Source: Bacillus sp. ISL-55
GTDB taxonomy: Bacteria > Bacillota > Bacilli > Bacillales > Cytobacillaceae
Length of the DNA stretch: 64,000 bases
Direction: 5' to 3'
Assembly (NCBI RefSeq): GCF_018613155.1
Contig: NZ_JAGGQU010000001.1
Span: 63,848-127,847, forward strand
Both the position numbers and the translations under genes were made by a program. Positions 43,975 through 61,155 of the stretch are shown here, one piece after another. The number at the start of each line of letters is the position of its first letter. Position 1 is the first letter of the stretch. Under the pieces are notes generated by a model that ran no database searches, was not told the DNA's origin, and worked only from the letters and a program-made list of their open reading frames with translations.

Positions 43975-46092
43975 ATGGAACAAGAAAAACAAAGTTTTTC
44001 CTTTGACTGGGCAGGCCGTAAGCTGACAGTCGAAATAGGGCAGCTTGCTAAGCAGGCAAATGGAGCTGTACTTGTCCGTTATGGCGATACAGCGGTACTT
44101 AGTACTGCAACTGCTTCAAAAGAACCGAAGAATTTAGACTTTTTCCCGCTGACAGTAAATTATGAAGAAAGATTATATGCTGTTGGTAAAATCCCAGGTG
44201 GTTTTATTAAGCGTGAAGGACGTCCAAGCGAGAAGGCTATCCTTGCCAGCCGCTTGATTGACCGTCCAATCCGTCCGTTATTTGCTGATGGTTTCCGTAA
44301 TGATGTACAGGTAATCAGCATTGTGATGAGTGTGGATCAAAATTGTTCATCTGAAATGGCTGCAATGTTTGGTTCATCACTGGCGCTATGTGTTTCCGAT
44401 ATTCCGTTTGAAGGGCCGATCGCTGGTGTGACAGTTGGAAGAATTGATGGCAAGTTCGTCATTAATCCATCTGTTGAAGAAACAGAAAAGAGCGATATGC
44501 ATCTTGTCGTTGCAGGTACAATGGATGCGATTAACATGGTTGAAGCCGGTGCGGATGAGGTTCCTGAAGAAGTAATGCTTGAAGCGATCATGTTTGGACA
44601 TGACGAAATCAAGCGTCTTATTGCTTTCCAACAGGAAATTGTGGCACAGGTTGGTAAAGCGAAGCGCGAAATTACTCTCTTTGAAATAGACAAAGAATTA
44701 GAAGCAGAAGTACGCGGGATTTGCGAACCAGACATGCTTGCTGCAATCCAGGTACAAGAAAAGCATGCACGCGAAGATGCAATTAAAGAAGTTAAAAATT
44801 CCATTGTTGCTCGCTATGAAGAGCAGGAAGCGGATGCAGACAAGCTTAAAATGGTGAAACAGATCCTTGATAAAATCGTCAAAGGCGAAGTACGCCGCTT
44901 GATTACGGAAGAAAAAGTCCGTCCAGACGGCCGTGGAGTAGACGAAATCCGCCCGCTTTCTTCAGAGGTAGGCTTGCTTTCCCGAACTCATGGTTCCGGC
45001 TTGTTCACAAGGGGACAAACACAGGCTTTGAGCATTTGTACGCTTGGAGCAATGGGTGATGTTCAAATCCTTGACGGACTTGGAATAGAAGAAGAAAAAC
45101 GTTTCATGCACCATTATAACTTCCCGTTATTCTCAGTAGGTGAAACTGGACCGATTCGCGGACCAGGCCGACGTGAAATTGGGCACGGTGCACTTGGCGA
45201 ACGTGCGCTTGAACCTGTTATCCCAAATGAAAAAGACTTCCCATATACAGTCCGCCTTGTATCCGAAGTTCTTGAATCAAATGGTTCTACTTCACAGGCG
45301 AGTATCTGTGCAAGTACATTAGCTTTGATGGATGCTGGTGTGCCGATTAAAGCACCGGTTGCTGGTATTGCTATGGGTCTAATTAAATCAGGAGAACACT
45401 ACTCTATTCTCTCTGATATCCAGGGTATGGAAGACCACCTTGGTGACATGGACTTCAAAGTAGCCGGAACGGCAAAAGGTGTTACGGCATTGCAGATGGA
45501 TATCAAGATCGATGGGTTATCCCGTGAGATACTTGATGAAGCTTTACAACAGGCGAAAAAAGGTCGTATGCATATCCTGGAATCTATGCTTGCCACTATC
45601 AAAGAACCACGCGAGCAGCTTTCAAAATATGCTCCGAAAATCATTACGATGTGGATCAAGCCGGATAAAATTCGCGACGTCATTGGGCCAAGCGGAAAAC
45701 AAATCAACAAGATCATCGAAGAAACTGGCGTAAAAATCGATATCGAACAAGATGGTACGGTATTTATTGGTTCAGTAGACGAAGAAATGATCCAAAAGGC
45801 CAAGAAAATCATCGAAGATATCGTCCGTGAAGTCGAAGTCGGAGAGATGTATCTTGGTAAAGTCCGCCGCATCGAAAAGTTTGGTGCGTTCGTGGAAATC
45901 TTCCCTGGAAAAGACGGTTTGGTACACATTTCCGAGCTTGCTGAAGAGCGGGTAGGAAAAGTTGAAGATGTCCTTAAGCTCGGAGATGAACTTCTAGTTA
46001 AGGTCACTGAAATCGACAAGCAAGGAAGAGTCAATCTTTCACGCAAGGCAGTGTTGAAAGAACAGCGTGAAAAGGCTGAAAAACAATCATAA
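43975..46092 (+). CDS. pnp: Polynucleotide phosphorylase
   Basis: 705 residues from the ATG at 43975; upstream in-frame start at 43942 is unlikely because AGAGGGG is close to 43975 and homologues start at this point. Two RNase PH-like domains ([40 protein letters not shown]), then KH ([20 protein letters not shown], about 550-610) and S1 ([20 protein letters not shown], about 618-690). 3'-5' phosphorolytic exoribonuclease of the RNA degradation machinery. Confidence 0.98.
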
Positions 46093-46093
46093 A

Positions 46094-46159
46094 ATAAGAA
46101 ATGCCGATGCGCCTCGAAGGGCTAGGCGCTGGAGCTGGACACAGATTTCAGTTTCTTAT
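46094..46159 (+). repeat. Short dispersed palindromic element (copy A)
   Basis: 66 bp bounded by ATAAGAAA (46094-46101) and TTTCTTAT (46152-46159), perfect 8-bp terminal inverted repeats. It contains GCGCC/GGCGC arms and, on the minus strand, GTCCAGCTCCAGCGCCTAGC (46121-46140), a motif repeated at 17 of 20 positions in 63466-63485. I recall similar short elements scattered through Bacillaceae intergenic DNA. Confidence 0.6.
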
Positions 46160-46168
46160 AAAACATTG

Positions 46169-46197
46169 AAAGGCCGGGGGCAATCCGGCCTTTTTTT
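46169..46197 (+). terminator. Terminator after pnp
   Basis: AAAGGCCGG / CCGGCCTTT (46169-46193) with 7-nt loop and following T. The rest of the intergenic DNA to 46410 shows no gene, repeat or convincing promoter apart from the AGAGGAGGCG ribosome site of ylxY. Confidence 0.92.
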
Positions 46198-46410
46198 GAT
46201 TTTCTCACAAATTATTTTTAACACCCCCGGCTCATCCGAAGCATTCCACGCAAGCTAGTAGTCACGCTCTGTTTTTTCTTTGATGGCTGACAATGGTCTT
46301 TCGTTCTACCTTGTCCTTCTGTTTCATAAAATAAAATAAGGCCTTGTTTGTACATTCGAGACTCAAAGCCAATTTTATGAAGAGACCTTACAGAAGAGGA
46401 GGCGCATTAA

Positions 46411-47376
46411 ATGAGAAAATTTTTATTAATTTCTGTCATGTTGATTGCGGGCTGGACCATGGTGAATAATCCATTCTCTCATACATATGTAACAGGGCTA
46501 AAAGCCGGGACACTTGCGGTGACAGGGAATGTGAATTCATTAATGTCAGAAATCGAAATGAAAGCAAAAGAATTTGAAGTTGAACCATCGGATGCCAGGA
46601 AGGATCCGGTCTGGAAGGTAATCCCCGGCTACAATGGTCTTAAAGTAGATGTAAAAAAGTCATATAGCAAAATGGAGAAGGAAGGGAAATTTGATCCGGA
46701 AAAGCTGGTCTTTAAACAGGTTCCTCCTGAAATCCATCTAAGTGATTTGCCGCCTATGGCCATTTACAAAGGGCATCCTGAAAAGCCAATGGTCAGCTTT
46801 ATTATCAATGTAGCATGGGGGAATGAGTATTTGTCCGGGATGCTGGCGACATTGAAGAAGCATAATGTGACCGCTAGTTTTTTTCTTGAAGGCAGATGGG
46901 TAAAGAATAATCCGGGTATGGCTAAAATGATTGCTGATGCGGGCCATGAGATAGGAAACCATTCATTTACGCATCCAAACATGAAGCAGCTTTCTGCTCC
47001 TAAAATCAATGAAGAGATTAGGAGGACAAATGAAGTTATTGAAGCAGTGACCGGGGTGAAAACCAAATGGTTCGCTCCACCGAGCGGGTATTACAAGGAC
47101 GAGGTAGTTGAAATTGCTGCAGCCCATCAATTAGGGACTGTCATGTGGAGTGTTGATACAATCGACTGGCAGAAGCCAACGCCAGAAAAACTGATCGACA
47201 GGGTGATGGGTAAGGTGCATAATGGCGCAATGATTTTAATGCATCCAACAGAGTCGACTGCTGCCTCGCTCGACCAATTAATCACAAAAATAAAAGATAA
47301 AGACCTGCAAATTGGAACTGTATCAAATATGTTGAGTGAAAATCGGATAGTATCTGCAAAAAAAATGAAAGAATAG
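46411..47376 (+). CDS. ylxY: YlxY, NodB-domain polysaccharide-deacetylase-like protein
   Basis: 321 residues. N-terminal signal/anchor (MRKFLLISVMLIAGWTMV), then a NodB-like domain from about 125. The usual TFDDG motif is replaced by SFIINVAWGNEY (about 129-140), so the catalytic-base Asp pair is missing, while the metal His pair is kept in EIGNHSFTHPNM and the end motif in LMHPT; the RPPxG motif reads APPSGYY. B. subtilis YlxY shares NVAWGNEY, so this is a family trait and not damage. Activity is therefore doubtful or atypical. Confidence 0.92.
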   Translation: MRKFLLISVMLIAGWTMVNNPFSHTYVTGLKAGTLAVTGNVNSLMSEIEMKAKEFEVEPSDARKDPVWKVIPGYNGLKVDVKKSYSKMEKEGKFDPEKLVFKQVPPEIHLSDLPPMAIYKGHPEKPMVSFIINVAWGNEYLSGMLATLKKHNVTASFFLEGRWVKNNPGMAKMIADAGHEIGNHSFTHPNMKQLSAPKINEEIRRTNEVIEAVTGVKTKWFAPPSGYYKDEVVEIAAAHQLGTVMWSVDTIDWQKPTPEKLIDRVMGKVHNGAMILMHPTESTAASLDQLITKIKDKDLQIGTVSNMLSENRIVSAKKMKE

Positions 47377-47459
47377 CATTGTATTTGGAAAAAGTAAGTT
47401 AAATGGACTATACTAAGTAATGCAGAAGTTTTAGCAGCAGGTTCCAGAGGAGGAATATA

Positions 47460-48692
47460 ATGATAAAGAAATATACATGCCAAAACGGTGTAAGAATCGT
47501 ACTAGAACAAATCCCAACTGTCCGTTCTGTCGCAATCGGAGTATGGATCGGAACGGGCTCCCGTAATGAAAGCCCAGAGAATAATGGGATTTCCCATTTC
47601 CTTGAGCATATGTTCTTCAAAGGCACCAAAACAAGGTCTGCCAGAGAAATCGCAGAGTCCTTTGACAGCATTGGCGGCCAGGTGAATGCATTCACTTCCA
47701 AGGAATATACCTGCTATTACGCTAAGGTGTTAGATAATCATGCACAATATGCACTTGAAGTTTTAGCTGATATGTTCTTTAATTCTACCTTTGATTCAGA
47801 GGAGCTAAATAAAGAGAAGAACGTTGTAAATGAAGAAATCAAGATGTATGAAGATACACCAGATGATATCGTCCATGATTTACTTAGTCAGGCTGTTTAT
47901 GGTGACCATCCACTGGGGTACCCAATCCTGGGTACGGAAGAAACGCTCCAAAGTTTTACAGGAGAAAAATTGGAACAGTATATGCATGATACGTACAGAC
48001 CGGAAAACGTCGTCATTTCCATTGCTGGGAACGTTCCGGAATCTTTCATTAATAATGCTGAAAAATTCTTCGGCTCATATGAAGCGAGCAAAGAGAAGAT
48101 GGAATATGAGAAACCAGAGTTCCACGCAACACAGGCTTCCAGGAAAAAAGAAACTGAACAAGCACATCTGTGCCTTGGGTTTGAAGGCTTGCAAATTGGC
48201 CATTCAGACGTCTATAGCCTAATCGTATTGAACAATGTACTGGGAGGCAGCATGAGCAGCAGATTGTTCCAGGAGGTACGTGAACAACGCGGCCTTGCTT
48301 ATTCTGTATTTTCCTATCACTCCGCTTATCGTGACAGCGGAATGGTGACGATTTATGGCGGCACAGGAGCAAATCAGCTTGGCGTTTTATATGAAACAAT
48401 TCAGGACACGCTCACGAAGCTGCGAGCAGACGGCATTACGGAGAAGGAACTCAACAACAGCAAAGAGCAGCTTAAAGGCAGTCTGATGCTAAGTCTTGAG
48501 AGCACAAACAGCCGTATGAGCAGAAACGGAAAAAATGAACTCCTGCTAGGAAGACACCGCTCCCTTGATGAGATCGTCGAACAAATCGACCAGGTGACCA
48601 AGGATAGCGTAGACGGCATGGCAAATAAGATCTTTACAGACAAATACTCTGTTTCGCTGATCAGTCCAAATGGCGAACTGCCAAACGTATAA
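47460..48692 (+). CDS. mlpA: MlpA (YmxG), M16 zinc peptidase
   Basis: 410 residues. Inverted zinc motif H46-F-L-E49-H50 in NGISHFLEHMFFKGTKTR, third ligand Glu in NVVNEEIKMYEDTPDD, and the second M16 lobe (LFQEVREQRGLAYSVFSYHS). No signal peptide. In B. subtilis MlpA (YmxG) lies between ylxY and ymxH. GGAGGAATATA precedes the ATG. Confidence 0.96.
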   Translation: MIKKYTCQNGVRIVLEQIPTVRSVAIGVWIGTGSRNESPENNGISHFLEHMFFKGTKTRSAREIAESFDSIGGQVNAFTSKEYTCYYAKVLDNHAQYALEVLADMFFNSTFDSEELNKEKNVVNEEIKMYEDTPDDIVHDLLSQAVYGDHPLGYPILGTEETLQSFTGEKLEQYMHDTYRPENVVISIAGNVPESFINNAEKFFGSYEASKEKMEYEKPEFHATQASRKKETEQAHLCLGFEGLQIGHSDVYSLIVLNNVLGGSMSSRLFQEVREQRGLAYSVFSYHSAYRDSGMVTIYGGTGANQLGVLYETIQDTLTKLRADGITEKELNNSKEQLKGSLMLSLESTNSRMSRNGKNELLLGRHRSLDEIVEQIDQVTKDSVDGMANKIFTDKYSVSLISPNGELPNV

Positions 48693-48705
48693 AATCGTCC
48701 CATCG

Positions 48706-48736
48706 ACAGCAGCTTCCATATGAAGCTGCTGTTTTT
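48706..48736 (+). terminator. Terminator after mlpA
   Basis: ACAGCAGCTTC / GAAGCTGCTGT (48706-48732), 11 perfect pairs, 5-nt loop, TTTT following. It isolates mlpA from the repeat array downstream. Confidence 0.92.
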
Positions 48737-48781
48737 GATCCATTCAGGGCAAGGGCGGATACTAGTATAACTTGGTGATTC

Positions 48782-49257
48782 TTGACAGCTTTATGATCTT
48801 CTTCTGAAAAGCTGTCAAGAAAACGAAGGAATCGTGACAGGTTTGGCCGCTGCACTTGAAAAGCTGTCAAGAAAACGAAGGAATCGTGACAGGTTTGGCC
48901 TCTACATCTGAAAAGTTGTCAAGAAAACGAAGGAATCGTGACAGCTTTGGACACTGCACCAGAAAAGCTGTCAAGAAAACGAAGGAATCGTGACAGGTTT
49001 GGCCTCTGCACTTGAAAAGCTGTCAAGAAAACGAAGGAATCGTGACAGGTTTGGCCTCTGCACTTAAAAAGCTGTCAAGAAAACGAAGGAATCGTGACAG
49101 GTTTGGCCTCTGCACTTGAAAAGCTGTCAAGAAAACGAAGGAATCGTGACAGGTTTGGCCTCTGCACTGGAAAAGCTGTCAAGAAAACGAAGGAATCGTG
49201 ACAGCTTTGGCCTCTGCGCCTGAAAAGCTGTCAAAATAACAGCAGATTCATGATAAC
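48782..49257. repeat. Tandem palindromic array 1: eight 52-bp units
   Basis: Units start at 48811, 48863, 48915, 48967, 49019, 49071, 49123 and 49175, each exactly 52 bp, to 49226. Each has a palindromic module, AAAGCTGTCA - 17 nt - TGACAGGTTT (TGACAGCTTT in units 3 and 8 gives ten perfect pairs), and a 15-nt linker with TGCACTTGA. Partial units flank: 48782-48810 (right half) and 49227-49257 (degenerate left half). Units 1 and 3 vary most; the others are almost identical. 52 is not a multiple of three and no reading frame crosses it, so it is not coding. It fills most of the 654-bp mlpA-ymxH gap. Confidence 0.97.
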
Positions 49258-49346
49258 AATACCCCTTTTTTAACGGATATGTATTCTAAAAAACTTCCTG
49301 GATTGATACATATATAATAAGGACAAAGTGACAGGGGGAGGGCATC

Positions 49347-49592
49347 ATGAAACTAAGTGAACTTGGAGGAAAAGAAATCGTCGATGTAAAGAGGGCAGAA
49401 AGATTGGGCGTCCTTGGTCAGACGGATTTGGAAATCAATGAAAGAACCGGACAAATAGAGGCTTTGATTATTCCGTCTTTAAAATGGTTCGGCCTCCGCA
49501 AACAATCAGGAGAAGTAAGGGTACCATGGAAGCATATCAAAAAAATAGGATCAGACATGATTATCATTGACATCCCTGATGATGAAGAGTAA
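49347..49592 (+). CDS. ymxH: YmxH, YlmC/YmxH family PRC-barrel protein
   Basis: 81 residues: MKLSELGGKEIVDVKRAERL, GVLGQTDLEINERTGQIEAL, VRVPWKHIKKIGSDMIIIDI. PRC-barrel-like YlmC/YmxH family, sporulation-associated in bacilli; function unknown. GGGGGAGGG ribosome site. A TATAAT at 49313-49318 lies close upstream but lacks a -35, so its promoter is uncertain. Confidence 0.93.
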   Translation: MKLSELGGKEIVDVKRAERLGVLGQTDLEINERTGQIEALIIPSLKWFGLRKQSGEVRVPWKHIKKIGSDMIIIDIPDDEE

Positions 49593-49622
49593 AAGCGGGC
49601 CTAAAGCCGGCTTTATTTTTTT
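49592..49622 (+). terminator. Terminator after ymxH
   Basis: AAAGC-g-GGC, loop CTAAA, GCC-g-GCTTT (49592-49614), then ATTTTTTT. Confidence 0.8.
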
Positions 49623-49667
49623 GCCTATGTATTTAGGGATCATTGTTTTTAAACTAATACAATTTTG

Positions 49668-49699
49668 AGCGCTGGCCAATGGCTGGCGCTTTTCTTTTA
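49668..49699 (+). terminator. Second terminator-like hairpin before dpaA
   Basis: AGCGCTGGCC, loop AAT, GGCTGGCGCT (49668-49690) with two internal mismatches, followed by TTTCTTTT. Two terminators in series insulate dpaA from ymxH. Confidence 0.75.
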
Positions 49700-49709
49700 T
49701 GGAAAACTC

Positions 49710-49737
49710 ACCTATTCCCAGTCTGATACATATGATG
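49710..49737 (+). promoter_or_regulatory. Candidate SigK promoter of dpaA
   Basis: AC (49710-49711), 17 bp, CATATGATG (49729-49737), one mismatch from the mother-cell SigK pattern AC-N16/17-CATAnnnTA. The spoVF (dpaAB) operon of B. subtilis is SigK-dependent, so position and sequence agree. Confidence 0.45.
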
Positions 49738-49803
49738 TTGAAGTAGTTCGAAATGAATGAAATTTATATTCCAGGATTAATGGAAAAGAAGGTGATTGTT
49801 CTC

Positions 49804-50706
49804 ATGCTGACAGGAATGCAAATCGCGGTTATCGGCGGTGATGCGAGACAGCTGGAGATTATTCGCAAGCTGACAGAGCTTGATGCAAAGCTTTCTTTAA
49901 TAGGCTTCGAGCAGTTGGATCATGCTTTTACAGGTGCCTCAAAAGAAAAGATAGATGAAGTTGATTTTTCCGTACAGGATGCTTTGATCCTGCCTGTGCC
50001 AGGTACGAGTATGGAGGGCCAGGTCGAGACCATTTTCTCGAATGAAAAAGTAGTCCTTATAAAAGAAATGCTTGAAAAAACACCTGAACATTGCACAGTT
50101 TATTCAGGTATCAGTAATTCCTATTTAACTGGGATTACAAATCAAGCGAACAGGAAACTCGTACAGTTATTCGCTCGTGATGATGTTGCAATATATAACT
50201 CGATTCCGACGGTCGAAGGAACGATCATGATGGCAATCCAACATACGGATTTCACTATCCATGGCTCAAGGATAGCTGTTCTCGGCCTTGGAAGAGTTGG
50301 GATGAGTGTCGCGAGAACCTTCCATGCCCTTGGAGCCAAGGTGAAGGTAGGGGCCCGGAAAAGCGAACACATTGCAAGGATTTCGGAAATGGGGTTAGAA
50401 CCTTTCCTTTTATCCGATATAGGCAAGGCGGTCTCGGATTCCGATATTTGCATCAATACGATTCCTAATCAAATTGTTACTGCCTCCGTCATTTCGAGGA
50501 TGCCTGCTCATACTTTGATCATCGACCTTGCATCCAAACCAGGTGGAACGGATTTTCGCTATGCGGAAAAACGTGGAATCAAAGCATTGCTTGCACCTGG
50601 ATTGCCAGGAATCGTTGCCCCGAAAACAGCGGGACAAATTTTGGCGAATGTTCTTTCTCAGCTGCTTATGGAAGACTTTATAAACCGAAAGGAGAAAGAA
50701 GTATGA
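49804..50706 (+). CDS. dpaA: Dipicolinate synthase subunit A (SpoVFA)
   Basis: 300 residues from the ATG at 49804, with AAGGTGA 8 nt upstream; homologues begin MLTGxxIAVIGGDARQLEII in the same way. Rossmann dinucleotide motif RIAVLGLGRVGMSVARTFHA (about 155-175) and GLPGIVAPKTAGQILANVLS at the end. With DpaB it makes dipicolinic acid from dihydrodipicolinate (product of DapA, 54093) in the mother cell for spore heat resistance. Overlaps dpaB by 4 nt. Confidence 0.97.
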   Translation: MLTGMQIAVIGGDARQLEIIRKLTELDAKLSLIGFEQLDHAFTGASKEKIDEVDFSVQDALILPVPGTSMEGQVETIFSNEKVVLIKEMLEKTPEHCTVYSGISNSYLTGITNQANRKLVQLFARDDVAIYNSIPTVEGTIMMAIQHTDFTIHGSRIAVLGLGRVGMSVARTFHALGAKVKVGARKSEHIARISEMGLEPFLLSDIGKAVSDSDICINTIPNQIVTASVISRMPAHTLIIDLASKPGGTDFRYAEKRGIKALLAPGLPGIVAPKTAGQILANVLSQLLMEDFINRKEKEV

Positions 50707-51299
50707 GTTTAAAAGGTAAGAAGATTGGTTTTGGATTAACAGGCTCACATTGTACGTACGACGCTGTTTTTCCGGAAATTGAAAAGTTGGTGAATGCAGG
50801 CGCTGAAGTTTTACCTGTTGTCACATTCACAGTTAAAAATACAGAAACACGTTTTGGAAAAGGTGAAGATTGGGTACAGCGGATTGAAGAACTAACAGGT
50901 AATAAAGTGATTGATTCGATTGTAAAGGCAGAACCTCTAGGTCCAAAAATCCCTCTGGATTGCATGGTCATTGCGCCGCTGACTGGTAACTCCATGAGCA
51001 AGTTTGCAAATGCAATGACAGATTCGCCAGTTTTGATGGCTGCCAAAGCAACATTAAGGAACCAAAAGCCAGTTGTCCTTGGTATTTCTACTAACGATGC
51101 ATTGGGGCTTAACGGCGTAAACCTTATGAGGCTGATGGCAACCAAGAATATTTACATGATTCCTTTTGGCCAGGATGATCCAGTGAAAAAGCCAAATTCA
51201 ATGGTTGCAAGAATGGAAATGCTTTCCGAAACAATCGTTGAGGCAATGAATGGAAAACAGTTACAACCCGTATTAGTCGAGCGTTACAAGGATAACTAA
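50703..51299 (+). CDS. dpaB: Dipicolinate synthase subunit B (SpoVFB)
   Basis: 198 residues, flavoprotein (HFCD) fold: KKIGFGLTGSHCTYDAVFPE, MVIAPLTGNSMSKFANAMTD, VLGISTNDALGLNGVNLMRL. Partner of DpaA in dipicolinate synthesis. ATGA overlap with dpaA. Confidence 0.97.
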   Translation: MSLKGKKIGFGLTGSHCTYDAVFPEIEKLVNAGAEVLPVVTFTVKNTETRFGKGEDWVQRIEELTGNKVIDSIVKAEPLGPKIPLDCMVIAPLTGNSMSKFANAMTDSPVLMAAKATLRNQKPVVLGISTNDALGLNGVNLMRLMATKNIYMIPFGQDDPVKKPNSMVARMEMLSETIVEAMNGKQLQPVLVERYKDN

Positions 51300-51696
51300 G
51301 GAGAAATTTCAGGCTTTTTTCGAAATCATTGTTGCTAGCGGGAGTAAAATTTGGTTTATGGATAGCCATATCCGTTCAGAGGTCATACAGAAATGAGTTT
51401 GAGAGCCTCTAAGGTTGCACGTGTTCAAGGGAATGTGCGGATAGCAACAATCGATGCGAAAAGAGTCTGTTTTTTTTAAAAAAACAACACAAACACAGCA
51501 TATTTTATTTTGGAAATGCTTTTCTCCGGCAGTGAAGCAAAATGTTTCTTTTCTTAATGATTGATTATGATAAAATATAGGATAATATACTAGGCGGTTA
51601 TTTCTTATAGACCGCCGTTTTATACTTATGATTCAAACAACCTCAGCTAAAATGCGGGGTATTAAAACGATATTGGTAGTGGAAGGGGAAACAGCA
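51300..51696 (+). promoter_or_regulatory. dpaB-asd intergenic region with asd promoter candidate
   Basis: 397 bp without a gene. Nested pairing GTTGC..GCAC / GTGC..GCAAC spans about 51415-51452, and T8 follows at about 51471 without an adjacent stem. A promoter candidate is TTGATT (51561-51566), 16 bp, TAATAT (51583-51588). GGCGGT / ACCGCC (51593-51616) followed by GTTTTA is a small terminator-like hairpin just downstream, so the leader could be attenuated. No lysine riboswitch pattern recognised. Confidence 0.4.
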
Positions 51697-52746
51697 ATGT
51701 CAGAGAGAAAAGGTTACCGTGTAGCAGTAGTTGGAGCAACAGGAGCAGTAGGTCAGCAGATGATCCAGACGCTTGAAAGCAGGGACTTCCCTGTGTCTGA
51801 GCTATTATTGTTGTCATCATCAAGATCAGCTGGTACAAAGGTTCAATATAAAGGCGAAGAGTTGACAGTACAGGAAGCCAAGCCAGAAAGCTTTGAAGGT
51901 GTAGATATCGCCTTGTTCAGCGCAGGAGGAAGTGTTTCCAAGGAACTGGCACCAGAAGCAGTCAAACGCGGTGCGATTGTTGTGGATAACACAAGTGCAT
52001 TCCGTATGGATGAAAACACTCCGCTTGTCGTGCCTGAAGTAAATGAGGAGGATCTGCATTCACATAATGGGATCATCGCTAACCCGAACTGCTCTACGAT
52101 CCAGATGGTCGTTGCATTGGAGCCATTACGGAAAAAGTTCGGCCTGAAAAAGATTATCGTATCCACGTACCAGGCAGTATCTGGTGCAGGTGCTGCTGCT
52201 GTCGAGGAGCTGGAGGAGCAGACACAGGCAATCCTGAACGGAGAAGAATATGAACCTAAGATCCTTCCGGTCAAGTCAGCCGATAAGCACTACCAGATTG
52301 CATTCAACGCCATTCCCCAGATCGATACATTCGTAGATAACGGTTTTACGTATGAAGAAATGAAGATGATCAATGAAACTAAAAAAATCATGCACATGCC
52401 TGGACTGCAGGTAGCGGCAACATGTGTACGCCTGCCGGTAGGCACAGGTCATTCAGAATCGGTGTATATTGAAATTGGGCAGGACGATGTTTCTGCAGCA
52501 GAAGTGAAAGAGCTTTTAGCTGATGCACCGGGAGTTGTCCTGCAGGATGATCCTGAACAGCAGCTTTATCCAATGCCTGCATTCTGTGTTGGCAAAAATG
52601 ACGTTTTTGTCGGCAGAATCAGGAAGGATCTAGACAATGACAAAGGCTTCCATATGTGGGTCGTTTCTGACAACCTGTTAAAAGGGGCAGCATGGAATTC
52701 AGTCCAGATTGCTGAAAGTCTTGTAAAGCTTGGAATAGTAAAGTAA
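51697..52746 (+). CDS. asd: Aspartate-semialdehyde dehydrogenase
   Basis: 349 residues from the ATG at 51697 (GGAAGGGGA 8 nt upstream). NADP motif [20 protein letters not shown], catalytic Cys C132 in [12 protein letters not shown], and [15 protein letters not shown]. Reduces aspartyl phosphate to the semialdehyde, feeding DapA and threonine/methionine branches. Followed by dapG and dapA; the three share the aspartate pathway. Confidence 0.97.
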
Positions 52747-52787
52747 ACACAAAATTGATTTAATGACAGAAATTCTGAGGTGTTACG

Positions 52788-54032
52788 ATGAAAATAATCG
52801 TTCAAAAATTTGGCGGTACTTCTGTCCGAGACGAACAAAGCCGCATCCAGGCGATGAGTCATATTAAGAAGGCAATCGCGGATGGGTACAAAGCGGTGGT
52901 AGTCGTTTCTGCGATGGGCAGGAAGGGAGATCCGTACGCTACTGACACTCTCCTCAGCATGCTGGGAGGAAGTGACAGCAAGATCAGCAAGCGGGAGCAT
53001 GATATGCTATTATCATGCGGAGAAACGATTTCAAGTGTTGTTTTTACCAATATGCTGCTTGAAAATGGCATTAATGCAACTGCGCTTACAGGTGCTCAGG
53101 CTGGTTTCAGGACGAATAGCGAGCATACGAACGCAAGGATACTTGATATGAAGTGCGACCGATTGCTAAGAGAACTGGATCAGGTCGACGTAGTCGTCGT
53201 GGCAGGATTCCAGGGTGCTGCAAAAAATGGGGACGTGACTACAATCGGCAGGGGCGGCAGTGACACATCGGCGGCGGCACTCGGCGCGGCGTTAAACGCT
53301 GATTGGATTGACATCTTTACCGATGTCGAAGGAATCATGACTGCTGATCCGAGAATTGCTGATAACGCACGTCCACTTTCCGTGGTAACATATACCGAAG
53401 TTTGCAATATGGCTTACCAGGGAGCAAAGGTGATCCACCCACGTGCTGTTGAGATCGCCATGCAGGCAAAAGTTCCGATCAGAATCAGGTCAACTTATTC
53501 GGAAGGCCTTGGCACGCTCGTTACTACCCTTAATCGTGAAAATAAAGGAACTGACATAAAGGAACGACCTGTAACGGGAATTGCGCATGTTTCAAATGTA
53601 AGCCAAATAAAGGTTTTTGCAAAAAAAGACCAATACAATCTCCAATCTGAGGTTTTTAAGGCAATGGCCAATGAAAATATCAGCGTGGATTTTATTAATA
53701 TTTCTCCAAATGGAGTGGTCTACACTGTCTTGGACGAAATGACGGACCGGGCTGTGAGAGTATTAGAAGGATTGGGACACACTCCGCAAATTGTGAGACA
53801 TTGTGCGAAGGTATCGGTTGTCGGAGCAGGAATGGCAGGAGTCCCGGGTGTAACTTCAAAAATTGTTACAGCTTTATCAGAAAAAGGGATCCGCATCCTT
53901 CAGTCCGCTGACAGCCATACAACCATTTGGGTATTGGTCAAACAAGAGGATTTAGGAAAGGCAGTAAATGCATTGCATGATGCCTTCCAACTCGAAGAGG
54001 AAACAGCAGATTTCGAACGGCAAGATATTTAA
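52788..54032 (+). CDS. dapG: Aspartokinase I (DAP-sensitive type)
   Basis: 414 residues. Kinase domain opens MKIIVQKFGGTSVRDEQSRI and includes FQGAAKNGDVTTIGRGGSDT; two C-terminal ACT regulatory domains (about 265-400, with VYTVLDEMTDRAVRVLEGLG and VVGAGMAGVPGVTSKIVTAL). First step of the aspartate pathway; DapG is the meso-DAP-inhibited isozyme of bacilli. 41 nt after asd. Confidence 0.96.
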   Translation: MKIIVQKFGGTSVRDEQSRIQAMSHIKKAIADGYKAVVVVSAMGRKGDPYATDTLLSMLGGSDSKISKREHDMLLSCGETISSVVFTNMLLENGINATALTGAQAGFRTNSEHTNARILDMKCDRLLRELDQVDVVVVAGFQGAAKNGDVTTIGRGGSDTSAAALGAALNADWIDIFTDVEGIMTADPRIADNARPLSVVTYTEVCNMAYQGAKVIHPRAVEIAMQAKVPIRIRSTYSEGLGTLVTTLNRENKGTDIKERPVTGIAHVSNVSQIKVFAKKDQYNLQSEVFKAMANENISVDFINISPNGVVYTVLDEMTDRAVRVLEGLGHTPQIVRHCAKVSVVGAGMAGVPGVTSKIVTALSEKGIRILQSADSHTTIWVLVKQEDLGKAVNALHDAFQLEEETADFERQDI

Positions 54033-54042
54033 TAAAGATTTT

Positions 54043-54068
54043 GCTTCCGGCCTCTAAAAGCCGGAAGC
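54043..54068 (+). promoter_or_regulatory. Perfect hairpin between dapG and dapA
   Basis: GCTTCCGGC (54043-54051), 8-nt loop, GCCGGAAGC (54060-54068), followed only by CTTTC. Lies 24 nt before dapA. Without a good T-run it may act as a partial attenuator or an RNA processing/stability element inside the operon. Confidence 0.6.
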
Positions 54069-54092
54069 CTTTCAGAAGAGGAGTGAACAGGA

Positions 54093-54959
54093 ATGGTTCA
54101 ATTCGGAAGAGTATCCACAGCAATGGTGACCCCTTTTGACCACAAAGGTCACATTGATTTCAATAAAACGACCCAGCTAGTAAACCATTTGATCGATAAC
54201 GGGACAGATTCCCTTGTTGTTGCAGGGACAACAGGTGAATCCCCGACTCTATCTAAAGAAGAGAAAATCGCATTATTCCGGCACGTCGTGAAGGTTGTTG
54301 ACAAGAGGGTTCCTGTCATTGCAGGAACGGGCAGCAATAACACATATGCTACCATCGAACTGACTAAAAAAGCAGAAGAGATTGGCGTGGACGCGATCAT
54401 GATTGTAGCGCCATACTATAATAAGCCAAACCAGGAGGGCCTTTACCAGCATTTTAAGGCAGCTGCAGAAGCTACCTCACTCCCAGTAATGGTGTATAAC
54501 ATTCCGGGCAGGTCAGTAGTCAACATTCTGCCAGAAACAATCATCAGGCTTGCTGAAATTCCCAACATTGTCGCTGTAAAAGAAGCAAGCGGCGACTTGA
54601 ACGCCATGACGCAAATCATCGCCAATACACCGGACGATTTCCTTCTATATAGTGGAGATGATGGATTGACTCTGCCAGTGCTTGCAATCGGCGGTACTGG
54701 AATTGTATCTGTAGCTTCACATGTAATTGGAAATGAAATGCAAGCAATGGTTGATGCATACTTAAGCGGAAGAAATGCTGATGCAGCGAAACTCCACCAG
54801 AGACTGCTGCCAATCATGCAGGGACTGTTCGCAGCTCCTAGTCCTTCACCTGTAAAAACGGCTTTACAGCTAAAAGGGCTTGATGTAGGATCTGTACGTT
54901 TGCCAATGGTGCCATTGACTGAACAGGAAAGAACCGCAGTAGCTAAACTATTTCAATAA
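54093..54959 (+). CDS. dapA: 4-hydroxy-tetrahydrodipicolinate synthase
   Basis: 288 residues, TIM-barrel NAL family. GTTGESPTLSKEEKIALFRH, the catalytic Tyr in VMVYNIPGRS, and Schiff-base Lys K163 in VAVKEASGDL. Condenses aspartate semialdehyde and pyruvate; its product feeds both lysine/DAP and, through DpaAB, dipicolinate. GAGGAGTG ribosome site; strong terminator follows. Confidence 0.97.
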   Translation: MVQFGRVSTAMVTPFDHKGHIDFNKTTQLVNHLIDNGTDSLVVAGTTGESPTLSKEEKIALFRHVVKVVDKRVPVIAGTGSNNTYATIELTKKAEEIGVDAIMIVAPYYNKPNQEGLYQHFKAAAEATSLPVMVYNIPGRSVVNILPETIIRLAEIPNIVAVKEASGDLNAMTQIIANTPDDFLLYSGDDGLTLPVLAIGGTGIVSVASHVIGNEMQAMVDAYLSGRNADAAKLHQRLLPIMQGLFAAPSPSPVKTALQLKGLDVGSVRLPMVPLTEQERTAVAKLFQ

Positions 54960-54969
54960 ATTGTGTAAG

Positions 54970-54996
54970 GCCAACCTTTGGGGGTTGGCTTTTTTT
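54970..54996 (+). terminator. Terminator after dapA
   Basis: GCCAACC / GGTTGGC (54970-54989) with 6-nt loop and seven T. Confidence 0.93.
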
Positions 54997-55063
54997 GAGA
55001 TGTAAAAAAAGCAATTTTTGAACTATGGCATTTCAGTAATGTCATCGTGGCCTTTCTTATGGT

Positions 55064-55631
55064 ACTGTCCACAAGCTACAAAATGTCTAATAACCACAGC
55101 TTCCTGGACATTTTGAAAGTGCACAAGCACCAAAATGTCTAATAAAAATAGTTTCCTGGACATTTGAAAAGTGCACAAGTTCCAAAATGTCTAATAACCA
55201 CAGCTTCCTGGACATTTTGAAAGTGCACAAGCTACAAAATGTCTAATAAACCCAGTTTCCTGGACATTTTGAAAGTCCACAAGCTCCAAAATGTCTAATA
55301 ACCACAGCTTCCTGGACATTTTGAGAGTGCACAAGCTTCAAAATGTCTAATAAACCCAGCTTCCTGGACATTTTGAAAGTGTACAAGCTACAAAATGTCT
55401 AATAAACACAGTTTCCTGGACATTTTGAAGGCCCACAAGCACCAAAATGTCTAATAAAACCAGCTTCCTGGACATTTTGAAAGTGCACAAGCTACAAAAT
55501 GTCTAATAAACACAGTTTCCTGGACATTTTGAAGGCCCACAAGCACCAAAATGTCTAATAAAACCAGCCTTCCTCGACATTTTGACTGAACACGCGGCCT
55601 GAAATGTCTATTAAGTTCAGTTAGACATTTG
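55064..55631. repeat. Tandem palindromic array 2: ten exact 52-bp units plus degenerate ends
   Basis: Units start at 55079, 55131, 55183, 55235, 55287, 55339, 55391, 55443, 55495, 55547, all 52 bp apart; these are followed by a degenerate unit at about 55599-55631. Module: CAAAATGTC - 19 nt - GACATTTTG (9 perfect pairs in most units) plus a 15-nt linker, usually AAAGTGCACAAGCTA. Variants in loop and linker are distributed non-randomly: units 8-9 match units 10-11 as a 104-bp higher-order repeat. A partial linker (CCACAAGCTA) precedes unit 1. Not coding. With the dapA terminator and the rnjB promoter it accounts for most of the 868-bp dapA-rnjB gap. Confidence 0.97.
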
Positions 55632-55746
55632 GCCACCTTCCTGACCTCAGGATGTTTGATAAACACTTATGCTGGTTCTAATGGATAAAAGCAGATTAAT
55701 GAAAAAACCGGGTTCTGTCACCTAGAAAATCCCTTAGGATATTAAG

Positions 55747-55776
55747 TTGTCAATATTTTCTGTCATCAAGTATAAT
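55747..55776 (+). promoter_or_regulatory. Probable rnjB promoter
   Basis: TTGTCA (55747-55752), 18 bp, TATAAT (55771-55776). Start of transcription near 55783, about 45 nt before the rnjB start. 55632-55746 holds nothing recognisable. Confidence 0.7.
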
Positions 55777-55827
55777 GTTATTAATTGGTCACGGTCGGAG
55801 ATATAACAACATAGGAGGAGCGGAGAA

Positions 55828-57498
55828 TTGAATACGAAGAAAAATGAAAATATAAAAATCATTGCACTTGGTGGAGTAGGGGAAATCGGCAAGAATATGT
55901 ACGTCACCGAAGTGGACGGTGATATTTTTGTGGTTGATGCAGGGTTAATGTTCCCCGAAGATGAGATGCTGGGGATCGATATTGTCATTCCCGATTTTTC
56001 CTATTTAACTTCTAATAGTGAAAGGGTAAAGGCGATTCTACTGACGCATGGGCATGAAGACCACATTGGCGCATTAACTTATGTTTTGAGAAAAATAAGT
56101 GTTCCTGTTTATGGAACTAAGCTTACCATTGCCCTTGCAAAGGAGAAGATGAAGGAACAGGAATTTTGTGGTTCGGTTGATTTTCATGACATCAATGCAG
56201 ATACTGTCTTGAATTTCGAAAGTGTTTCTGTTTCATTTTTCAAGACCAATCACAGCATCCCTGATTCAGTTGGCATCAGCATCAATACCTCAGAAGGAGC
56301 AATCGTACATACAGGTGATTTTAAATTCGATCAGGCTGCTGGCCCGCTATACAAACCCGAAATTGGCAAGATGGCCGCAATTGGTGAAAAAGGAGTTCTC
56401 TGCCTGCTTTCTGACAGTACAGAGGCGGAGAGCCCGGGATATACTCCATCTGAATCAACCGTTGTTTCTGAGTTGTCTAATGTATTTCATAATGCACAGG
56501 GCAGAATCATTGCTGCCTGCTTCGCTTCTGATCTAAACAGAATCCAGCATCTCTTTGACAGTGCCGCGGCAAATGCCCGTAAGGTAGCTGTGGCAGGAAA
56601 AAGCCTGAAACGTGTTTATGATCTGGCATTACAACTTGGCTACATACAGGTTGAAAAGGACTTGATTATTTCGGTAAATGATTTGGAGAACTATGAAGAT
56701 AATCAGGTAGTTATTTTAACCACGGGAAATCAGGGCGAGCCAATTGAAGCCCTTCAAAAAATGGCTAAACAAGTGCATCCCCAGGTAAATATCCAGGAAG
56801 GGGACACTGTCTTGTTTGCAGCATCCCCATTAAGGGGAAGTGAAGTATTTATTTTTAAGACAATGGATATGCTTTACCGAGCCGGAGCAAACGTAGTATC
56901 AAGCAAAAAAAGTGTTCAGGTTTCAAGCCATGGAAGCCAGGAAGAACTGAAATTCATGATTAATTTAATGAACCCGAAATTCTTCATTCCTGTTCATGGT
57001 GAACACAAAATGCTTAAGGCCCACAAAAAGTTAGCGCAGTCTTGCGGAATTTTGGAAGAGAATATTTACATCCCGGACCGCGGTGACGTTATTGACATTT
57101 CTGGCGGAAAACTAAAGTCCACAGAGAAGGTGCCGGCAGGGAATATATTGATTGATGGAATCGGAGTAGGAGATGTAGGCAATATTGTTCTCCGCGACCG
57201 CAGGCTGCTCTCGCAGGACGGTGTTTTAATTGTAGTCGTCACACTGAATAAAGCAGACAGAAAGATTGCAGCCGGCCCGGAAATTATATCCCGCGGATTC
57301 GTCTATGTACGAGAATCAGAAAAGCTGATGGCTGATTCAATCACCCTGGTAAAAGAAGTCGTAGAGAAAAATACAAATAAAGAGCCATTCGATTGGAACA
57401 GTCTAAAACAGGATATACGTGATTCACTGAGCCAATACTTATATGAAAAAACAAAACGCCGCCCAATGATCATGCCGATCATAATGGAAGTTAAATAA
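55828..57498 (+). CDS. rnjB: Ribonuclease J (RnjB position)
   Basis: 556 residues, TTG start after AGGAGGAGCGGAG. Metallo-beta-lactamase/beta-CASP fold: IIALGGVGEIGKNMYVTEVD, the metal motif H74-G-H76-E-D78-H79, HTGDFKFDQ, SQEELKFMINLMNPKFFIPV, and FVYVRESEKLM. By locus it is RnjB (RNase J2). B. subtilis RnjB has a degenerate motif here (HGHDEN as I recall), whereas this protein has the complete HxHxDH. 5' exo/endoribonuclease in mRNA turnover. Confidence 0.94.
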   Translation: MNTKKNENIKIIALGGVGEIGKNMYVTEVDGDIFVVDAGLMFPEDEMLGIDIVIPDFSYLTSNSERVKAILLTHGHEDHIGALTYVLRKISVPVYGTKLTIALAKEKMKEQEFCGSVDFHDINADTVLNFESVSVSFFKTNHSIPDSVGISINTSEGAIVHTGDFKFDQAAGPLYKPEIGKMAAIGEKGVLCLLSDSTEAESPGYTPSESTVVSELSNVFHNAQGRIIAACFASDLNRIQHLFDSAAANARKVAVAGKSLKRVYDLALQLGYIQVEKDLIISVNDLENYEDNQVVILTTGNQGEPIEALQKMAKQVHPQVNIQEGDTVLFAASPLRGSEVFIFKTMDMLYRAGANVVSSKKSVQVSSHGSQEELKFMINLMNPKFFIPVHGEHKMLKAHKKLAQSCGILEENIYIPDRGDVIDISGGKLKSTEKVPAGNILIDGIGVGDVGNIVLRDRRLLSQDGVLIVVVTLNKADRKIAAGPEIISRGFVYVRESEKLMADSITLVKEVVEKNTNKEPFDWNSLKQDIRDSLSQYLYEKTKRRPMIMPIIMEVK

Positions 57499-57507
57499 GC
57501 ACGATAA

Positions 57508-57536
57508 AGTACTGGCTCAAGGCCAGTGCTTTTTGT
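57508..57536 (+). terminator. Terminator after rnjB
   Basis: AGTACTGGC / GCCAGTGCT (57508-57530) with one G-U and one A-C-like mismatch, 5-nt loop, then TTTTG and T7. Confidence 0.85.
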
Positions 57537-57620
57537 TTTTTTATTTTTATGTCACTTAGCGCTCTGGAATGAAATTGAAGATGATGTTCATACTAAAATT
57601 ATCATGCCTGAAGGGAGCAT

Positions 57621-58367
57621 ATGAATATGAATAAATTCAGTTCGGAAAACCAGGAAGGTCAGCAAGGGGATAAGGAAAACAAACCATCGGGCCTTCTTGA
57701 GAAAATCCAACAGCTTGGTCAGACGAATGTTCCCCAGCTGTCTCAAGATTCAAAAATTCATTGTTTGACGATTGTCGGTCAAATCGAAGGGCATATGCAG
57801 CTTCCGCCTCATAATAAAACGACAAAATATGAGCATTTGATTCCGCAGCTTGTTGCAATTGAACAAAACCAGAATATTGAAGGATTGCTTGTCATTCTTA
57901 ATACTGTTGGCGGGGATGTGGAAGCAGGGCTGGCAATCTCGGAAATGCTGGCATCACTTTCGAAGCCAACCGTTTCTATCGTACTTGGCGGCGGTCATTC
58001 CATCGGAGTGCCTATAGCAGTTTCCTGTGATTATTCGTTTATTGCCGAGACTGCGACAATGACAATTCATCCAGTCAGGTTGACTGGACTCGTCATCGGT
58101 GTTCCGCAAACATTTGAATATCTCGATAAAATGCAGGATAGAGTTATTAACTTTGTTACGAAGCATTCCAATATAACTGAAGAGACATTCAAAGAGTTGA
58201 TGTTTGCCAAAGGCAACCTGACAAGGGACATCGGAACGAATGTTGTCGGCCTTGATGCAGTTGAGACTGGTCTGATCCATGAAGTCGGCGGAATAGGGCA
58301 GGCGATGAAAAAATTAAATGAATTAATCGATATAAATAAACGAGAGTCAGAAGTGATTGTACAATGA
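57621..58367 (+). CDS. tepA: TepA, ClpP-like serine protease family protein
   Basis: 248 residues (start ATG 57621; ATG 57627 also in frame). ClpP/crotonase-type fold: [20 protein letters not shown], nucleophile Ser in [13 protein letters not shown] (about 126), His in [12 protein letters not shown]-terminal 45 residues polar. Reported in B. subtilis as translocation-enhancing protein and more recently in spore physiology; substrate unknown. Its last codons overlap ylzJ (ATGA). Confidence 0.93.
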
Positions 58368-58576
58368 TCCTTTATACTATGATGCCGCATGAACAGGTTT
58401 TTCCGCCGAGTGAAGAGGGAGCCGTTAACCAGGTCATGATCAGCTATAATGGAATCCCTATCATGGCTGAATATACAGAGAATCACGAGTACCGGGTAGT
58501 CAGGGTAATGAGTACAGACCCAAACCATTATATGGAGCAATCCTGTTTGCCTGGTTCTACCATTACTCTTTCTTAA
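58364..58576 (+). CDS. ylzJ: YlzJ-like small protein
   Basis: 70 residues: [48 protein letters not shown]. Matches the YlzJ-like family found between tepA and spoIIIE in bacilli. Function unknown. ATGA overlap with tepA suggests coupling. Confidence 0.9.
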
Positions 58577-58694
58577 GTACTCATTGCGCGATATGATTTA
58601 ATAGAAAACCTTTTACCACGACCAGAGCACCCAGTGAAATAGCATCGCCCCTATCTATTATAAAAAACGATTGTGCCGATTCTACTGGCAAATA

Positions 58695-58745
58695 TGATAT
58701 AATATGGTTACACTAAAGCATTGGCAGCCGAATAGGGCTGCTTTT
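58695..58745 (+). promoter_or_regulatory. spoIIIE promoter (extended -10) and leader hairpin
   Basis: TGATATAAT (58695-58703) is an extended -10 with no good -35. About 20 nt downstream GCAGCC/GGCTGC (58724-58741) is followed by TTTTATT, a terminator-like hairpin within the leader. 58577-58694 shows no gene. Confidence 0.55.
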
Positions 58746-58818
58746 ATTCTTACTGCAGTTTGAGAACAGGACTCTTTGCTTATGCTGATAGTGAAGCTAA
58801 AAATATTCAGGTGATAAA

Positions 58819-61155
58819 ATGGCCAAAAAGAAAAGACGGCAATCGAGAAAGAAGAGTACATTGAAAACAACAGTTCAATATGAACTTGCCGGGTTAGCAC
58901 TGCTCGCGTTGGCCATCATAGCGATGGCGGATTTGGGTGCTGTAGGAAGGGCGGTCGTAATGTTTTTCCGCTTTTTCTTCGGGGAATGGTATATGCTCAG
59001 TCTGGTAGGACTGGTCGTGTTCAGTATTTACATTATGTGGAAACGCAGTCTCCCGTTTATATTCCATACCAAATTGCTTGGTACATATCTGATTGTTGGT
59101 GCAATCTTGTTATTAAGTCATGTGACGTTATTCGAACTATTATCCAATGGAGGTAAGTTTGAGGATCCTAGTGTCATTAAAAATACTTTTGAGCTATATG
59201 TCATGGAAGCAAAAGGAGAGACAAGCACGACCGACCTCGGAGGCGGGATGATCGGCGCTGTGATGTTTGCGCTGTTTTACTTTTTGTTTGATGCAGCAGG
59301 ATCTCAATTGATTGCTTTTCTTCTGATCATCATTGGAGGTATTCTCGTTACAGGGAAGACCTTTAGTGAAGTTGCGGGGAAAATACTTACACCGATTGGC
59401 AGTTTTATCAAAGGCCAGTGGATTTCATTTATTGATGATCTAAAGCAGTGGAAGGAAGATCAACAGCATAAAAAGGAAGCCAAGAAGCTCGAAGCGAAAC
59501 AGGCAAAAACTGAGAGCAAACAGGCAGATAAACAGGAATCATCTGTTGAAAAAATAATTGACCTTAACCCGGAGCCCGCTCCAGAGCCAATCATCTCCAG
59601 CTTTGCGGAGCGAGCCTATACAAACCCGGCTGAAGCACAACCATGGCAGCCGGAGAAGCAGGCAAAACCTGCAAATGACAAAGAAGATGACGGGGAAGCA
59701 TTGGCACAGCCCATTACTTTTACCGAGGTAGAGAATACCTCCTATGAGCTCCCGCCGATAGACATATTGAAGCTGCCGAATAAAACCGACCAGAGTGGAG
59801 AATACGAAATGATCCATGCCAATGCGGCCAAGCTTGAACGTACATTCCACAGCTTTGGCGTAAAGGCAAGGGTTACCCAGGTGCATCTTGGTCCTGCTGT
59901 TACGAAATATGAAGTGCACCCCGACGTCGGTGTCAAGGTTAGCAGAATTGTAAGTCTGAACGATGATCTGGCACTGGCTTTGGCTGCGAAGGATATCAGG
60001 ATCGAAGCGCCTATACCAGGAAAATCAGCCATTGGAATAGAGGTTCCTAATTCTGAGGTGGCAGTGGTTTCTTTACGGGAAGTTATTGATTCAAAACAGC
60101 ACAACAAACCTGGGGCAAAACTCCAAATTGGTTTAGGACGCGATATTACCGGTGAAGCAGTGCTTGCAGAATTGAATAAAATGCCCCACCTTCTTGTTGC
60201 TGGTGCTACAGGAAGCGGCAAGAGTGTATGTATTAATGGCATTATCACTAGTATTCTCATGAAGGCAAAGCCTCATGAAGTCAAACTGATGATGATTGAT
60301 CCGAAAATGGTAGAGTTGAATGTTTATAACGGAGTTCCACATCTGCTGGCTCCTGTCGTCACCGATGCTAAGAAAGCATCCCAGGCACTGAAAAAAGTGG
60401 TCAGTGAGATGGAAAGGCGCTATGAGCTCTTCTCACACACTGGTACAAGGAACATAGAAGGCTACAATGAATATATTAAGAGGTATAATAGCGAGGAAGA
60501 AGCAAAACAGCCTCTGCTTCCATTCATTGTCGTTATTGTGGACGAGCTAGCTGACTTAATGATGGTCGCATCTTCGGATGTTGAAGATTCAATTACCAGA
60601 CTCGCTCAGATGGCACGAGCTGCGGGAATCCACCTGATCATTGCAACGCAGAGACCATCTGTTGATGTCATTACAGGGGTAATCAAAGCAAATATTCCGT
60701 CAAGAATTGCATTTGCCGTTTCTTCGATGACAGACTCACGGACGATTCTCGATATGGGCGGCGCTGAAAAGCTGCTGGGAAGAGGAGATATGCTGTTCCT
60801 GCCGGTCGGTGCATCCAAGCCTGTCAGGGTGCAGGGAGCTTTCTTATCGGATGAAGAGGTTGAAGAGGTTGTAAACTTCGTCATTGGCCAACAAAAGGCA
60901 CAGTATCAGGAGGAAATGATTCCAGAGGATATACCTGAGAACACGTCTGAGGTTGAAGATGAATTGTATGGTGATGCTGTAGACCTTGTGGTGGAAATGC
61001 AAACAGCTTCTGTATCCATGCTGCAAAGGAGATTCAGGATAGGATATTCACGCGCGGCAAGGCTGATTGATGAAATGGAGCTGCGCGGTGTCGTTGGTCC
61101 TTATGAAGGAAGTAAACCAAGGACCGTCCTGGTGGCTAAGTCAGAAGAGGCATAA
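58819..61155 (+). CDS. spoIIIE: SpoIIIE/FtsK DNA translocase
   Basis: 778 residues. Four N-terminal membrane helices (about 20-190), charged Lys/Gln/Glu linker (about 200-310), alpha/beta RecA-like motor with Walker [10 protein letters not shown] (about 462) and Walker [12 protein letters not shown], and a C-terminal winged-helix gamma domain ([20 protein letters not shown]) that reads DNA orientation sequences. Pumps the chromosome into the forespore. GGTGATAAA ribosome site. Neighbours tepA/ylzJ and ymfC match B. subtilis. Confidence 0.97.

Follow-up and report, generated by a model that had tools for sequence, protein, structure and literature searches.

The window considered here is a 64,000-nucleotide stretch of Bacillus sp. 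ISL-55 (assembly GCF_018613155.1, contig NZ_JAGGQU010000001.1, positions 63,848 to 127,847), and the elements of interest are two arrays of short palindromes that lie between its genes. Array 1 (48784..49232, no strand assigned) holds eight perfect 27-bp cores of the form TGTC-N19-GACA, with half-dyads at either edge; the cores span 48813-49203 and all steps between them are 52 bp. Array 2 (55079..55531, likewise without a strand) holds nine perfect cores spanning 55084-55526, again with all steps at 52 bp, and degenerate units run on to about position 55630. Tandem Repeats Finder (TRF) gave a period of 52 and 0% indels for both arrays, at 48805-49234 (8.3 copies) and 55070-55585 (9.9 copies). 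Each unit is an imperfect 37-bp dyad, made up of two 17-bp half-sites on either side of a 3-bp centre, followed by a 15-bp linker; the unit of array 1 at 48808..48844 is an example. The pair flanking the core is C-G in array 1, which has type 1 half-sites, and A-T in array 2, which has type 2 half-sites. This architecture, including the 37 + 15 split and the change of the flanking pair, had been described from the letters of the window before any search was made (the sequence-only reading), and both TRF and the core search confirm it.

The gene upstream of array 1 is presumably mlpA and the gene after it ymxH, and we take the gene upstream of array 2 to be dapA; rnjB is another name assumed for a gene in the window. 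A predicted intrinsic terminator of the gene upstream of array 1 is found at 48705..48735 (+ strand; hairpin of -16.2 kcal/mol, then a T run), and this block recurs in the aligned orthologous regions. Alignment of 10 such regions also shows a conserved block upstream of the gene after array 1 (49280..49345, + strand), a candidate promoter by inspection only. Array 1 sits between these two features. Array 2 comes after the predicted intrinsic terminator of its own upstream gene (54967..54995, + strand; hairpin of -13.8 kcal/mol, then a T run). An Rfam scan of positions 44000-60000 with E up to 1 gave no match in the array regions. Far from the arrays, on the minus strand at 44000-44155, there is a partial match to the Listeria small RNA rliD (37.6 bits, under the gathering score of 50), and it faces the start of a pnp-like gene.

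Similar arrays are found throughout the home genome (G000; 4.52 Mb in 69 contigs). BLAST searches started from the two window arrays returned 79 and 30 matches, and the matched places were taken with their flanks and examined with TRF and a regular expression for perfect cores. The TRF period was 52 at nearly all of these places. At least 48 arrays were recognised by the regular expression, the window's two included, as chains of 2-17 perfect cores with 384 cores in total; this is a lower bound that favours 52-bp arrays, because the queries were the two window arrays. Other core lengths are under-counted as well, because the arrays used for core counts, for the linker comparison and for the arm test described below were chosen by N19. 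Contigs C7, C8, C14 and C51 of this draft assembly end within or near arrays, so that draft counts may be too low. Type 1 accounts for 305 units, with half-sites like AAAGCTGTCAAGAAAAC and AAACCTGTCACAATAAC, and type 2 for 79 units, with half-sites CRAAATGTCYAAKAAA and CRAAATGTCYATTAAAC; over all 384 units the pair flanking the core is C-G in 291, A-T in 73 and something else in 20. A further array at G000:C1:83463-83801 (loci L415, L418 and L419), which these BLAST searches did not pick up, has the half-site TGTCCGAACTT, and the home genome therefore contains more than two half-site types. Half-sites alternate along the arrays. The arrays lie between longer open reading frames (ORFs); short overlapping ORFs on some of them are taken as chance.

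What is kept in these arrays is the spacing. Of 319 single steps in the home genome, 313 measure 52 bp, and the rest are 51 (four) or 53 (two). Neighbouring units differ at 808 of 3810 linker positions (21%) as against 704 of 9398 core positions, and when the consensus sequences of different arrays are compared, identity is 0.75-0.81 in the cores and 0.33-0.35 in the linkers, where 0.28 is given by composition alone. For comparison, the sequence flanking the array in ten orthologous mlpA-ymxH regions shows 10.2 and 13.3 substitutions per gap, a guide only, since the flank figure compares species and the linker figure compares units in one genome. Linker indels as frequent as flank indels were not seen. 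The genome-wide arrays bear out the proposal of the sequence-only reading that there is one intergenic family of fixed architecture, homogenised within each array. Its suggestion that the linker word AAGTGCA marks homology in opposite orientation is not supported. Four of the 9 units in array 2 have the word, and four of the 8 in array 1 have it reversed; among 1128 array pairs, 7-mer sharing was seen 7 times in opposite orientation and 23 times on the same strand, with a chance estimate of about 5, and such sharing between arrays is near chance.

The same geometry is widespread in related organisms. A search by geometry only, for three TGTC-N19-GACA cores joined by 23-26 bp, was carried out in 397 genomes of the order (NCBI places Mesobacillus in the Caryophanales, formerly Bacillales), with the reversed pattern as control. 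Runs of three dyads were detected in 68 of the 397 genomes, in 28 of 135 genera and in 17 families; the control had no match among the genomes listed. With the linker widened to 10-40 bp, which allows periods of 37-67 bp, the same 68 genomes were positive with 15 more runs, and 5275 of 5290 runs (99.7%) fell at 50-53 bp; the many other periods that would have spoken against a single family did not appear. Arrays of other genera have a period of 52 or 51 and an N19 core with quite different half-sites, and in G097 the core is mostly N18. At loci outside the family, steps between N19 cores were 50 (1), 51 (47), 52 (150) and 53 (3), which is no independent test of the spacing because the loci were chosen with the narrow pattern. 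Closed genome G009 has 456 three-dyad runs; the roughly 100 that are listed fall in the first 0.72 Mb of its 4.63 Mb, and others are found elsewhere. The longest of the arrays compared has 23 units. Near one dyad of G100 (locus L251, G100:C1:4038100-4039400) there is a separate 155-bp repeat of 21-bp TTCGCAAACAA units.

A two-unit profile built from sequence only (R1) matches 20 of the 21 genomes of the genus, with none in G008, and 68 of 193 genomes of the family at E 0.001, many of these with one weak match only. Among the matches listed, runs of type 1 cores occur in Mesobacillus selenatarsenatis, M. boroniphilus and Cytobacillus oceanisediminis, and single type 1 cores in unrelated organisms are probably due to chance. 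Two JAGGQZ01 records (L135, L164) labelled Chryseobacterium sp. ISL-80 have arrays of the Mesobacillus type; the label looks wrong. Outside the order, none of 391 genomes of a phylum sample has a run at 50-53 bp, and the other orders of the same class are represented there by 9 genomes only. The whole sample of 398 genomes, seven of them in the order, gave three positives, two Mesobacillus and the distant G830, with the reversed control positive in one genome. In G830 (C39:6-120, C40:21856-22058 and C86:77222-77336) the match is a 44-bp tandem repeat in which TGTC-N19-GACA is accompanied by a second small palindrome, and it looks unrelated to the arrays. Array 1 had no match in plasmids and phages, with the array 1 dialect as the only query. 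The geometry fits three viral contigs, one of which (L342) has type 2 units. In the other two (L343, L344) there are near-identical 53-bp tandem TGTCCCCTTGTT...AAGGGGACA dyads.

At a single site the arrays vary greatly. The mlpA-ymxH site was compared in 20 genomes, and where an array is present it ranges from remnants to about 14 units. G011, G020, G001, G013 and G012 have no array and a gap of 111-117 bp, and G002, G014 and G008 have other sequence at the site (the G014 contig begins just upstream). In G002 and G008 (L294, L301) this is GC-rich, repeat-like sequence in place of the array of their relatives. For species pairs, orthologous positions with arrays on both sides were seen in eight rows, which represent six distinct places chosen for having arrays. 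No clean empty site was found in the orthologous-site comparisons; one candidate (L093 with L042) proved to be an offset alignment of two occupied sites.

Variation of this kind would be familiar in a selfish or neutral satellite, a repeat that multiplies, that slippage, recombination or a transposase makes uniform, and whose geometry is kept by copying alone. Homogenisation within arrays, the widely varying copy number at one site, the absence of the array in several species and the patchy distribution all agree with such an origin. The spacing does not: it is maintained where the linkers of different arrays are near-random in sequence and across 17 families, and a plain satellite is not expected to keep N19 and 52 while the intervening sequence is lost. 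A range of other periods, or linker indel rates like those of the flanks, would also have told against copying alone; neither was seen. On balance a satellite is considered unlikely. That the spacing stays fixed while the surrounding letters differ between species suggests that a protein binds the dyads in rows.

The symmetry of the two arms bears on whether the palindrome is a hairpin or a protein site, the two possibilities left by the sequence-only reading, which had also described the arm changes as compensatory. In the Mesobacillus alignment a plain count of arm covariation is positive (0.207 vs 0.070 ± 0.007 for shuffled arms), a result ascribed to the split into two half-site types. Inside either type the two arms vary independently. 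At position ±15 of type 1 (305 units) the combinations are G-G in 216, G-C in 68 and C-C in 13, and the mismatch G-G or C-C is found in 229 of 305 units. At position ±9 of type 2 (79 units) T-G (39), T-A (17), C-A (15) and C-G (8) combine freely, and position ±17 behaves likewise. When arms were shuffled among arrays within a type there was no general excess of pairing; only position -8 of type 1 stood out (P 0.017, uncorrected).

A broader arm test used 145 arrays in 45 genomes and seven inner positions, after removal of six duplicate loci, of units containing N and of arrays that had fewer than two usable units, and each arm was compared with its own partner and with the arms of other arrays. 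Against the arms of any other array, symmetry was far above expectation (640 vs 384.3 ± 18.9), and the two arms do change together across lineages. When the comparison arms came from elsewhere in the same genome (118 arrays in 18 genomes), most of this excess disappeared (494 vs 467.7 ± 16.7, P 0.06). Within genome and type, the 68 arrays of Mesobacillus G000 and G009 were below expectation (254 vs 300.7 ± 12.8). The 48 arrays of 16 other genomes gave 228 vs 221.6 ± 7.4 (P 0.21). Several positions (o6, o3, o2 and i8) were less symmetric than the shuffle. Both arms mostly follow one code specific to the genome or type, and little else links them. Two half-sites of a dimer therefore fit better than selection for a hairpin. 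Of the compensatory changes claimed earlier, the joint change across lineages is supported and the base pairing is not. When two half-sites share one drifting recognition code, counting arm covariation can give a positive result even though base pairing is not under selection.

The palindromic arms, the positive plain count in Mesobacillus and the very high pooled symmetry would also be found in structured RNA, that is, if the arrays were transcribed and their units folded into processed or protein-binding hairpins with compensatory arm changes. The weak remainder within genomes, position i4 above its shuffle and the 23 of 53 array-facing gene ends at which no terminator was detected can be read in the same way. 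Such hairpins would hardly tolerate the prevailing G-G and C-C at ±15 of type 1 or the free combinations at ±9 and ±17 of type 2, nor would their own arms be expected to resemble each other less than the arms of different arrays, as is the case within type in G000 and G009. Shuffling within types left no general pairing excess, a predicted terminator precedes both window arrays, and Rfam is silent in both array regions. Processed or protein-binding RNA hairpins appear improbable, and of the two possibilities originally offered it is the one with a DNA-binding factor that is carried forward.

The arrays are thus best regarded as helically phased, putative double-stranded DNA sites for a homodimeric DNA-binding protein, an explanation held with confidence a little better than even. 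Each 27-37-bp dyad would bind one dimer. TGTC, invariant in the arrays, would be the contact of each half-site, and the roughly six bases inside it, which differ from lineage to lineage, would form a 'dialect' that drifts along with the protein. At 10.4 bp per turn, 52 bp corresponds to five turns, and dyads every 51-52 bp would thus place successive dimers on one face of the DNA, where they could touch and give a cooperative nucleoprotein row.

Where such rows would form is not random with respect to genes. In the home genome, 29 array gaps are tandem, 12 convergent and 3 divergent, and other gaps of at least 150 bp at the same loci number 48, 9 and 25 (P 0.002); a different calling of ORFs gave 30 tandem, 10 convergent and 4 divergent array gaps, with 4 unassigned. 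Of the 53 gene ends that face an array, 30 have a detected terminator ahead of it, a figure for array-bearing ends only, with no control set. The arrays tend to occupy the gaps between operons and to avoid divergent promoter gaps. Given this placement, the rows would most likely be architectural or insulating elements of the chromosome at dozens of loci, an exact role that is much less secure than dimer binding itself.

Enrichment in convergent gaps, avoidance of divergent gaps and alternating half-sites are also what would be expected of topology sites, similar to the bacterial interspersed mosaic elements (BIMEs) of enterobacteria, in which dyads recruit gyrase or a nucleoid protein and absorb supercoils downstream of operons. 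Gyrase is strongly conserved, and species-specific dialects would be odd for it. Repetitive extragenic palindromic (REP) sequences carry a tag that the arrays lack: in none of 145 array consensuses does GTAG or GGAG lie in the 6 nt beyond either arm (10 of 145 have one inside N19, on either strand). Supercoil-absorbing sites are for these reasons quite improbable. Work on REP and BIME sequences and their REP-associated tyrosine transposases (RAYTs) describes high-copy intergenic palindromes, often grouped and in alternating orientation (PMC3733652, PMC2817692). The arrays resemble them in being high-copy, intergenic and palindromic (384 cores in 48 chains in the home genome). They differ in having one locked period and little sign of selected hairpin pairing, and with no foot tag at the arms they were rejected as members of REP/BIME.

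The likeness to the res sites of serine resolvases is striking. Dimer sites in res are 25-34 bp long, and two neighbouring sites may lie about five turns apart. In Tn3 the consensus is TGTCYRNTA, site I is 28 bp and site III 25 bp, and the centres of sites I and II are 53 bp apart; a resolvase crossover site has an even length with a 2-bp overlap. With inverted TGTC half-sites and a core of 27 bp, the arrays fall within the range of dimer sites, and N19 makes that core odd, unlike a crossover site. Tn3/gamma-delta res subsites resemble the dyads in that TGTC closes both ends of an inverted dimer site of comparable length, and the oligonucleotides printed for Tn3 site III include TGTCTGATA close to one end (PMC9943657). 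Several half-sites of the arrays fit TGTCYRATA. The arrays could be rows of accessory subsites like those of res, with a resolvase or a domesticated relative of one as the binder; the odd length of 27 bp would keep them from recombining. Many dialects (CTTCAT, CTCATA and YTTTTG) do not fit, and the arrays are unlike res in forming dozens of chromosomal loci with up to 23 units. The HTH_7 domain (PF02796), in a survey that scored best first-pass candidates only, was detected in 50 of the 68 genomes with arrays and in 272 of the 329 without (odds ratio 0.58, P 0.09). This search, limited to PF02796, gave no match in G000 at E 0.001 and none in G011, G013, G014 or G034; G011 and G013 each have more than 440 runs. 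A Tn3-type resolvase was accordingly dropped as the binder, and binding by a resolvase or its relative is, on balance, a poor prospect. By analogy the arrays may function as res accessory sites do; they are not classed there because HTH_7 is not associated with arrays and gave no match in the home genome. WhiA, whose motif is GACAC, was also rejected as a binder: the base after GACA is not constant.

Other systems share single features with the arrays. Iterons, centromere-like plasmid arrays and the CENP-B boxes of satellite DNA are tandem sites that co-evolve with one binder, and the arrays, as putative tandem binding sites whose sequence would change with a binder, are analogous. They are unlike all three in being scattered over dozens of intergenic loci of the home genome, and array 1 has no plasmid match. 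The 37 + 15 organisation looks like the repeat-plus-spacer pattern of clustered regularly interspaced short palindromic repeats (CRISPR), in which unique spacers lie between identical repeats. Linkers in the arrays are near-copies of each other, with 21% differences between neighbours, and CRISPR was rejected on this basis, in a comparison of repeats and linkers only.

Several observations weigh against phased sites for a dimeric protein. A binding protein was not found in the HTH_7 survey, where presence of the domain does not track the arrays, or among the genes flanking arrays. Flanking ORFs of 30 loci were compared by blastp, with families looked up for ten flanking proteins, and no gene recurs widely beside arrays across genera. 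The comparison gave one orthologous place in genus g15, a few weak or partial pairs and a single strong cross-genus pair, of NERD-domain genes (L322:498-1406 and L329:389-1291), which are 46% identical and adjoin arrays in two genera of family f42. Two half-site types in the home genome would need two binders or two specificities, and within G000 and G009 the positions o5, o1, i1 and i4 are above the same-genome comparison. Most of the sampled genomes, and Mesobacillus G008 with them, have no detectable arrays, so that the role is not essential. Some lineages have a period of 51 or an N18 core. Some arrays may be transcribed, given the 23 gene ends with no detected terminator. There is also some residual symmetry of the arms: position i4 in the 16 other genomes is above the shuffle (36 vs 29.6, P 0.008, uncorrected).

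In open-access full texts no description of such arrays was found, most subscription papers being outside this coverage. Occurrence in 68 of 397 genomes and 17 families, with 99.7% fidelity of spacing, points to a system of DNA and protein that would escape annotation, being non-coding and without conservation of sequence. It is possible, if doubtful, that Bacillus-type bacteria have a chromosome-organising system in which a fast-evolving dimeric protein coats dozens of phased arrays between operons and co-evolves with them species by species. Binder and arrays might then change in step, in the manner of centromeric satellites and the proteins that bind them, the geometry being kept while the sequence varies freely. 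Should the binder be found, the arrays would be a naturally occurring operator-array system in which many specificities have evolved, and the use of phased protein rows by bacterial chromosomes could be tested directly.

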